From Lyngbya sp. HA4199-MV5 (GTDB taxonomy: Bacteria; Cyanobacteriota; Cyanobacteriia; Leptolyngbyales; Leptolyngbyaceae), in assembly GCA_019359375.1 (NCBI GenBank), contig JAHHHL010000032.1, positions 1 through 64,000 on the forward strand: 64,000 nt of DNA, given 5' to 3'. A model generated the notes under the pieces. That model was not told the origin of the DNA, did not search any database, and saw only the letters and a program-made list of their open reading frames with translations. The position numbers were made by a program, and so were the translations under genes. Positions 11,149 to 60,568 of this stretch are shown one piece after another (the stretch's first letter is position 1; each line of letters opens with the position of its first letter).

Positions 11149-11277
11149 TAGGGCGTGTCATCAATTAGCTCCGAAACCTTGCAATATCAGCAGTGTCACG
11201 CCCGTTCCAACACACCAGGCTAGGGGCTAGAACCCTTACTGCAAGCAATGTGTAGTAGTAATTGATGACAGCCTCTA
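11149..11277 (+). mobile_element. 125-bp MITE-like element, copy 1
   Basis: The element spans 11151-11275 between flanking TA dinucleotides (11149-11150 and 11276-11277). The left terminus is GGGCGTGTCATCAATTA; the right terminus reads GAGGCTGTCATCAATTA on the opposite strand, so the terminal inverted repeats are about 17 bp. The interior does not code. It matches copies at 16578, 44740 and 58471 along the whole length and is exactly the same size. Inserted in a gene-free spacer. Together with the REP-like hairpin it accounts for most of the gap from 10911 to 11376. Confidence 0.9.
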
Positions 11278-16577: not shown

Positions 16578-16706
16578 TAGGGGCTGTCATCAATTACTAC
16601 TACACATGACTTTCAGCAAGGATTCCAGCCCCTAGCCTGGTGTGCCGGAACGGGCGCGACACTGCTGATATTGCAAGGTTTCGGAGCTAATTGATGACAC
16701 GCCCTA
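16578..16706 (-). mobile_element. 125-bp MITE-like element, copy 2
   Basis: Element 16580-16704 between TA dinucleotides at 16578-16579 and 16705-16706, in the opposite orientation to copy 1. Termini are GGGGCTGTCATCAATTA on the left and, on the opposite strand, GGGCGTGTCATCAATTA. It lies 36 bp beyond the mltA stop and does not touch the coding sequence. Confidence 0.9.
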
Positions 16707-44739: not shown

Positions 44740-44868
44740 TAGGGCGTGTCATCAATTAGCTCCGAAACCTTGCAACATCAGCAGTGTCACACCCGTCCCA
44801 ACACACCAGGCTAGGGGCTGGAACCCTTGCTGCAAGCAATGTGTAGTATTAATTGATGACAGCCCCTA
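44740..44868 (+). mobile_element. 125-bp MITE-like element, copy 3 (in the stop codon of the GST-like gene)
   Basis: Element 44742-44866 between TA at 44740-44741 and 44867-44868, same orientation as copy 1. On the minus strand the TA at 44867-44868 plus the first G of the element is the TAG stop of the GST-like gene. Removing the element and one TA restores GTC-TAA, a stop at the same codon. Confidence 0.9.
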
Positions 44869-57804: not shown

Positions 57805-58473
57805 ATGAAACGGTTGCTGACCTGCTTGATTGGGGTCTTGGCTTTCACCACATCAAGCTGTGCCCTTGCGTCTCTGTTGACCGTGCCCCCTAAAGACCTG
57901 ATCGGACAGACGGTGAGTTGCCCAACAGGAGAGCAAGCAAAAGCAGAAGGGTTCACGGTTTTGAGCACGCAATCATGGTCTCAAGGAGTCATTGTCCTTT
58001 ACAGTGCTCGTTGTCCAGTCGTGGTGAGTCGCGATCGCACCACGATGCAGCCAGTTTTTGGTCACAAGATTGTTACGTGGCACGGCACCACATGGCAGGT
58101 AAGCGGGAACGGGAGCTATGGCACTGCCCCCACCTCAGCACCGACAAAGCAACTGGTGGAATATGGCATTAGTCGCTCTGCTAGTGTCAACCGCTCTTCC
58201 CCGCCCGGTGAACGCTACACCATTCTGTACGGTCGAGTGCTTCAGCCTCAAGTGGCGGCAATCGAAGCCACGTTTGACAATGGCAAGATTTTGCGCGGTA
58301 GAAGTAGCAACGGTGTGTTTGCGTTGCTTTCTGCGGGAGCTACAGGAGTTTGCGAGTTGCGCCTTTTGGGATCAGACAACCAGATTTTGCAACAAGACAA
58401 TCTGGTTGCCCCCAAGCGGTTTGCTCAGACGGGGCGATCGACTCAATGCTTGCCGATGTCACATCAGCTTTAG
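57805..58473 (+). CDS. Secreted protein, unknown function, ending in a MITE
   Basis: 222 residues. The signal peptide is MKRLLTCLIGVLAFTTSSCA; TSSC could be a lipobox. The mature part is beta-rich (SWSQGVIVLYSARCPVVVSR, HKIVTWHGTTWQVSGNGSYG, QVAAIEATFDNGKILRG) without a named family. The stop TAG at 58471-58473 consists of the target TA and the first G of MITE copy 4. Removing the element and one TA gives CAG-CTT-TAG again, so the protein end is probably original. Cysteines in the mature part may form disulfides. Confidence 0.7.
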   Translation: MKRLLTCLIGVLAFTTSSCALASLLTVPPKDLIGQTVSCPTGEQAKAEGFTVLSTQSWSQGVIVLYSARCPVVVSRDRTTMQPVFGHKIVTWHGTTWQVSGNGSYGTAPTSAPTKQLVEYGISRSASVNRSSPPGERYTILYGRVLQPQVAAIEATFDNGKILRGRSSNGVFALLSAGATGVCELRLLGSDNQILQQDNLVAPKRFAQTGRSTQCLPMSHQL

Positions 58474-58599
58474 GGGCTGTCATCAATTACGACTACACAT
58501 CACTTTCAGCAGGGGTTTCAGCCCCTAGCCTCGTGTGTTAGGTCGGGCGCGATGATGCTGATACCGCAAGGTTATGGAGCTAATTGATAACGTGCCCTA
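58471..58599 (-). mobile_element. 125-bp MITE-like element, copy 4 (in the stop codon of the secreted-protein gene)
   Basis: Element 58473-58597 between TA at 58471-58472 and 58598-58599, orientation as copy 2. It is the most diverged of the four internally (for example TGATAACGTGCCC at the right end). Overlaps the upstream gene by three bases, the stop codon. Confidence 0.88.
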
Positions 58600-58681: not shown

Positions 58682-60568
58682 TTAGATACGAGCAGCATAC
58701 GCTTCCTTCTCAGGAATGTTTGTATACTCAGAAACGATCTGCCGAAACTCATCGCCATCAATGGTTTCCCGTTCAATCAGCAGGTCTACCAGACGATCGA
58801 TCACCGTGCGGTTCTCACGGATAATGCGACGGGCATCATCGTAACAATGCTCGACGATCGCACGCACCTGGGCATCAATCCGAGAGGCGATTTCCTCAGA
58901 ATATTCTGAGCGCGTCATCCAATCCCGACCGAGAAACACCTCACCCTGCTGGCTTTCCAGCGAGAGCGGTCCCAAATCGGACATGCCGAAGCGAGTCACC
59001 ATCTGACGCGCCATATTTGCCACTTGCTGAATATCGTTGCCTGCACCCGTTGTGACTTCGGCATCGCCAAAAATGACGATTTCAGCGGCACGTCCACCCA
59101 GGGCACCCGTAATCCGCGCCAGGATCTGCGATCGAGAAATCAATGTCTGGTCTTCTCCCGGTGTAAACCAGGTTAAGCCCTGTGCCTGACCACGCGGAAT
59201 CAACGTGACCTTTTGGACGGGATCATGATCCTTCACCAGCGTACCGATAATGGCATGACCAATCTCGTGATAGGCAATCAGACGCTTGCTCTTGCTGTCT
59301 ACCAGCGGGGTGCCTTCCATGCCAGCCACCACCCGATCGACCGCATCATCCACTTCCAGCATGGTCATCGCTTCTTTGCGGCGACGCGCGGTGAGAATCG
59401 CTGCTTCGTTGAGTAAGTTCGCCAGATCAGCCCCCGTAAAGCCAGGAGTACGACGGGCGATCGCTTCCAGAGACACTTCTGGACTCAGCTTTTTGTTCCG
59501 AGCGTGAACTTGAAGCACTTCCAGACGACCTTTCATGTCGGGCGCATCGACTGTCACCTGGCGATCGAAGCGACCGGGGCGGAGCAAGGCAGAATCCAGC
59601 ACATCGGGACGGTTCGTCGCCGCGATGATGATGATGCCTGTGTTGCCCTCAAACCCATCCATCTCAGTGAGCAACTGGTTCAGCGTCTGCTCCCGCTCAT
59701 CGTTGCCACCCCCAATGCCCGCACCTCGCTGCCGTCCCACCGCATCAATCTCATCGATAAAGATGATGCAGGGCGCATTCTCTTTCGCTTTCTTGAACAA
59801 ATCCCGCACGCGTGAGGCACCCACGCCGACGAACATCTCCACAAACTCAGAGCCAGAGATGCTGAAGAAGGGTACACCTGCTTCACCCGCGATCGCCTTT
59901 GCCAACAAGGTTTTACCCGTACCAGGAGGACCAATCAGCAACACACCTTTGGGAATCCGTGCCCCGACAGCCGTAAAGCGTTCAGGCTTTTTGAGGAAGG
60001 TGACGACTTCTTGGAGTTCTTCTTTGGCTTCTTCGATACCAGCGACATCATCAAACATCACCCCGGTTTTGGCTTCCATTTGAAAGCGGGCGCGCGATTT
60101 GCCGAAGCTCATCGCCTGTCCAGGTCCACCTGGAACATTGCCAGAACGACGGAATAAGAAAAACAATCCACCCAGTAACAGGACAGGAAAGATCAAGTTG
60201 CCGAGCAGTCCCCAAATGGCACCATCGTTGCGAGTTGGGTGAGAGTCGAAGCTAATCTTGTCAGTTCTCAGTCGGGTAATGACTTCTGGTGCGTTTCCAG
60301 GAAGGTCTACGCGCAGTCGCTGCACGCGATTGTCCAGCTCAGGATCTATAGCTTCGACGATCGCCGTCCGTCCATTCTCATAAAAATCAACGCTTGTCAC
60401 CCGATGAGCATCCAGATACTCCAGAAACCGTCCGTAGGTCATCCGAGTACTGGCAGCATTGTTGCCCATGTTGACAGACGTGCTCATGGACGAACCTTGC
60501 CAGAGAAAAAAGCCGATGACGACGGCTGGCAATGTCCATAGCAAGACTGTTCGCCAAGAAAATTTCAT
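58682..60568 (-). CDS. ftsH: ATP-dependent zinc metalloprotease FtsH (FtsH2/Slr0228 type)
   Basis: A thylakoid or plasma-membrane protease that extracts and degrades damaged D1 protein in the photosystem II repair cycle, normally as a heterohexamer. 628 residues. An N-terminal helix ([17 protein letters not shown]) and a second at about 120 ([15 protein letters not shown]) bracket a lumenal domain. AAA motifs: [34 protein letters not shown] and the SRH region. The zinc site is [11 protein letters not shown], with the third ligand in [13 protein letters not shown]-terminus [11 protein letters not shown] and [19 protein letters not shown] closely follow Slr0228. Divergent from a quiet spacer. 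FtsH2 versus a close paralogue is inferred. Confidence 0.95.

Follow-up and report, generated by a model that had tools for sequence, protein, structure and literature searches.

A protein-coding gene of Lyngbya sp. HA4199-MV5 stops where a 125-bp repeat starts, its TAG stop codon being the left TA of a TA-flanked element plus the first G of that element. Did the element create this stop, or did it land on one that was already there, and are such landings commoner than the supply of target sites would predict? The locus lies in a window of 64,000 nucleotides (contig JAHHHL010000032.1, positions 1 to 64,000 of the forward strand), to which the coordinates below refer unless a contig is named.

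Structure of the insertion and the empty site

The host gene was called as an open reading frame on the + strand (57805..58473) encoding a 222-aa protein with a signal-peptide-like N-terminus and no match in Pfam. It terminates in CAT-CAG-CTT-TAG, the protein ending in ...SHQL*, and the local sequence runs CATCAGCTT-TAG-GGGCTG...GTGCCC-TA-GCGATCGC. The element, with left end GGGGCTG, occupies 58473..58597 (+), as delimited by its genome-wide copies and a consensus built from 126 of them. Its left terminal inverted repeat (TIR), GGGGCTGTCATCAATTA, covers 58473..58489 (+) and the right one, GGGCACGTTATCAATTA when read inwards, 58581..58597 (-), both located by pattern matches; the 17-bp terminal repeat reported in the preliminary description is present at both ends, but is imperfect (13/17 here, 14/17 in the consensus). 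The left copy of the TA target duplication (58471..58472, +) forms the first two bases of the present stop, which the element's G completes (58471..58473, +), whereas the right copy (58598..58599, +), together with G58600, is what remains of the original TAG. Further downstream, a convergent gene on the - strand (58682..60568; 628 aa by ORF call), probably encoding an FtsH-type AAA protease, is untouched by the insertion.

Of 58 genomes, 25 (a count that takes in the window's own) have an orthologue of the host gene, at identities of 36-76% within the family. The comparison with an empty site in a related strain, which the preliminary description had proposed, was possible in congener G006, where the site (L202) reads CATCAACTC-TAG-CGATCGCCC. 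Bar point differences, this is the window sequence minus the element and one TA: CTC-TAG-CGATCGC in G006, with TAG directly abutting CGATCGC, against CTT-TAG[125 bp]TAG-CGATCGC here. The element is absent from the 3' end of the gene in all nine relatives compared there, and each of them stops at the corresponding residues (...SHQL, LHQL, TQQL, SQQL or SNQL). Because the empty site and the nine orthologue ends agree, the insertion entered a pre-existing TAG and made the protein neither longer nor shorter. A tyrosine codon, TAT or TAC, struck by the element would likewise yield TAG, and the stop might on that account have arisen by insertion and shortened a formerly longer protein; yet a G follows the right TA, so that the empty site reads TAG, and the TAG of G006 at the same position, with the corresponding ends of the nine relatives, refutes such truncation, which we regard as next to impossible. 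It is thus confirmed that the element entered a pre-existing TAG stop at its TA and left the protein unchanged, and the sequence, the ORF end and the genome-wide copies bear out the original description of a MITE lying inside, and remaking, the stop codon of a secreted-type protein gene.

The element family and its transposase

The element has the properties of a MITE, being 125 bp long, bounded by TIRs, flanked by TA, devoid of a transposase and present in many copies. A genome search with its body scored 40 matches at E <= 2.4e-36, at least 40 places being similar to it over its length, and the TIR pattern, with up to two mismatches, gave 625 matches genome-wide against 2 for a reversed control, from which about 300 copies are estimated. 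Within the window, the same pattern occurs 9 times (0.8 in shuffles) and four MITE copies are present: besides the copy described above, one at 44740..44868 (-) likewise occupies a stop codon, that of a minus-strand GST-domain gene, and two, at 11149..11277 (-) and 16578..16706 (+), are intergenic. Six congener orthologues of the GST-domain gene have open frames of similar length, lengths alone being compared.

A tiled sample comprising 2.73 Mb of the own genome contained 126 copies of 120-135 bp, 105 of them with TA on both sides. Since the median identity to the consensus was 90% and no copy reached 97%, the expansion is old. With one mismatch allowed, the TIR pattern matched 545 times in the own genome, 63 and 74 times in congeners G002 and G006, and not at all in G001 and G005; the expansion is strongly lineage-specific. 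No copies were found in the plasmid collection. A 771-bp TIR pair elsewhere in the own genome (C2:55330-56100) was considered as a parent element and rejected, being a MITE copy split by an insert of about 640 bp, whose 135-aa reading frame resembles, by our assumption, an IS200/IS605 TnpA.

IS630/Tc1-mariner elements duplicate TA, and IS5-type elements prefer YTAR; the preliminary description had named both families. In another cyanobacterium, an 838-bp element (L224) has the ends of the MITE on either side of a two-frame transposase with the domains DUF4096 and DDE_Tnp_1, and its protein scores 289 bits against the NCBIfam IS5-family model NF033580 (cut-off 110). Two more such elements, 847 and 837 bp long and TA-flanked, are found on plasmids of Leptolyngbya sp. 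NIES-3755 and BL0902 (AP017311.1, NZ_CP046157.1); the TIR encloses a DUF4096/DDE_Tnp_1 transposase at L224, L325 and L326. The ends of the two plasmid elements, TAGGGCGTGTCATCAATT (TAGAGCGTGTCATCAATT in the first of the two), are like those of the MITE; these elements represent the autonomous type with a transposase, whereas the MITE retains only the ends. The MITE therefore shares its termini with an IS5-family transposon, and it also has a YTAR-type target, 103 of 105 sites being CTAG or CTAA/TTAG.

Duplication of TA would suit an IS630/Tc1-mariner origin as well, but is indecisive, as the IS5-family elements described here are also TA-flanked. The own genome has ten DDE_3 matches, not one of which lies between this TIR pair in the manner of an insertion sequence. 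As these ends do not bound its IS630-type transposase loci, an IS630 parent was rejected. Among these loci, L231 has a single TIR and L232 a MITE copy nearby. Because IS5-family elements share the ends and IS630-type loci do not, the MITE is assigned to the IS5 type, and the IS630 half of the earlier proposal is dropped. A search of the own genome found no IS5-family element bearing these ends, its two matches being distant (30-32% identity) and lacking these TIRs, and the mobilising transposase is accordingly inferred from other genomes.

Target choice and rebuilding of stops

The 105 TA-flanked sites comprised 57 CTAG, 46 CTAA/TTAG, two others and no TTAA, although only 33% of non-coding TAs conform to YTAR. 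TTAA accounts for about 10% of non-coding TAs and fits YTAR, yet it was used at none of the 105 sites; the target rule requires an outer C or G on at least one side. At six sites where the target was a TAA stop (first gene model), the stop after insertion is TAG in all six. Because TAA targets yield TAG, the G belongs to the element and the duplication is TA only; a four-base YTAR duplication was rejected, TAA targets showing TAG on the left side.

Both ends of the element begin with G in 102 of 105 copies, so a TAA or TAG stop becomes TAG whichever way the element enters, and copies in stop codons lie in the orientation of the gene 12 times and in the opposite one 11 times. The earlier proposal that insertion into a stop is silent in either orientation thus holds, except that the GGG on which it was based is unnecessary: any TA-duplicating element beginning with G or A would act alike, and three Gs are not needed.

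The same balance of orientations (12 and 11) bears on the possibility that copies in stops are retained for a useful hairpin, as a transcript 3' end or a stabiliser. The predicted RNA fold of the element is indeed strong (-46.5 kcal/mol, z = -2.7), but folding is expected of any TIR-bearing element, a terminator-like T tract is absent, the element has no match in Rfam, and orthologues without it have the same gene; retention for such a function is very unlikely.

Insertions at stop codons and gene 3' ends

Genes were called with a home-made hexamer model on the sequence after removal of the elements. Of the 105 insertion sites, 24 fell in stop codons, 78 in intergenic sequence and three in coding sequence, where 65 would be expected without selection. 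With each site matched for its tetranucleotide and coding sites excluded, 7.9 of the 102 non-coding copies in the 2.73 Mb would be expected in stop codons, and 24 lie there (P = 7e-7), an excess of about threefold; P values here and below are nominal, several cut-offs and two gene models having been tried, and genes missed by the model would inflate the distant intergenic null. The host genes are real insofar as each of the stop-codon host proteins scanned (15 of 24) passes the curated cut-off of a Pfam family; they include a cytochrome P450, Hsp33, a cytidine-deaminase-type protein, Maf and an ABC-transporter ATPase.

When only the best-scoring genes were kept and the whole intergenic null was used, 12 stop insertions stood against 4.5 expected (P = 0.0017). 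A second sample of 23 copies from other contigs had two in stops, close to its null of about 1.8; the two samples do not differ significantly (P = 0.16), and pooled they give 26 of 125 (P = 3e-6, at the null rate of the first sample).

The excess extends beyond the stop itself. Density relative to expectation was 3.1 at stops, 2.8 at 1-10 nt behind them, 2.1 at 11-30 nt and 0.5-1.0 farther away. Compared with other matching sites within 100 nt of gene ends, stops were still favoured (24 of 55 against 13.8 expected, P = 0.002), whereas within 30 nt they were not (24 of 40 against 20.8, P = 0.19). Because the excess spans the stop and the first 30 nt or so behind it, rebuilding of the stop need not be its cause, and there is no evidence that the excess is peculiar to stop codons. 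Of the predicted surplus of copies in stops over TA frequency, the surplus therefore stands, while specificity for stops does not, and the smaller second sample had only 2 of 23 there. That YTAR choice, TA duplication and terminal Gs were themselves selected, making stops a specific refuge with TAA slowly becoming TAG, seems decidedly unlikely.

Hsp33 provides a second gene of interest. In the own genome a copy lies inside its stop, and in G006 a separate copy, in the opposite orientation, begins 22 nt behind an intact TAA stop (L319). The left TA of the G006 copy reads GA. Five other congeners have no copy at the Hsp33 3' end, and four of these five end at the same point in the alignment; protein length is 301 aa in five of seven genomes, the own included, and 300 and 302 aa in the other two. 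Such a picture, of independent copies in two congeners, would be expected of a recurrent safe zone.

These two copies could also be read as steering, in which the transposase or the state of the DNA (supercoiling, terminator structure) directs insertion to stops or 3' ends; the persistence of the threefold excess after tetranucleotide matching and its reach to 30 nt downstream fit that idea too. The near-total absence from coding sequence, however, denotes strong selection, and selection by itself would leave copies surviving at 3' ends; copies are also over-represented in convergent gaps (19 present, 11.9 expected), a pattern published for pneumococcal repeats and ascribed there to weaker selection (PMC3049150). 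Steering is accordingly unlikely.

Discussion

We hold it about 85% probable that an IS5-moved MITE with a YTAR target, together with purifying selection sparing the 3' ends of genes, explains these data. An IS5-family transposase would move the non-autonomous MITE, as the shared termini suggest, recognising CTAG, CTAA or TTAG, cutting at TA and duplicating TA only. One copy fell on the TA of the host gene's TAG stop, the element's G restoring TAG. Purifying selection would remove copies in coding sequence, those at or just behind 3' ends surviving best, and stops, which lie in this safe zone and often conform to YTAR, would thus come to hold about a fifth of copies. We infer that selection rather than targeting causes the 3'-end enrichment; most simply, stop codons are in excess because insertions do least harm at the 3' ends of genes.

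The locus offers a clean, countable case of a small mobile element occupying a gene without changing its protein. If one in five to six copies lies in a stop, some 50-60 genes would, by extrapolation, end at an element-supplied TAG. The combination of target rule, coding avoidance and 3'-end enrichment makes selection and targeting experimentally separable. It also serves as a warning that a switch from TAA to TAG and a new 3' untranslated hairpin are possible without any visible change in the protein.

Nezha MITEs (Zhou et al. 2008, as cited in PMC10969869) are likewise short cyanobacterial MITEs, the comparison being by their description in that citing text. Small repeats of pneumococcus favour convergent gaps, which the relevant passages of PMC3049150 explain by weaker selection behind genes. 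RUP of Streptococcus pneumoniae resembles the present element in being a MITE (~107 bp) that duplicates TA and, according to the same passages (PMC3049150), in being over-represented between convergent genes; RUP is tied to IS630-Spn1, whereas the ends of the MITE described here match IS5-family elements. The BOX repeats of S. pneumoniae come closest in effect: as small interspersed repeats supplying gene stop codons, they provide the stop of 36 annotated genes, and the portion of PMC3049150 that treats them gives no good evidence that the proteins are shortened. Unlike the present MITE, BOX repeats are modular and not TA-flanked in the same way, and that portion offers neither a per-gene empty-site proof nor a test against target frequency (PMC3049150), both of which are given here. 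No published test of a stop-codon excess for a MITE was found in the open-licence literature. The phenomenon is thus known in kind, and what is new here is the empty-site proof, the target-matched count and a simple reason in the sequence for why the stop is kept.
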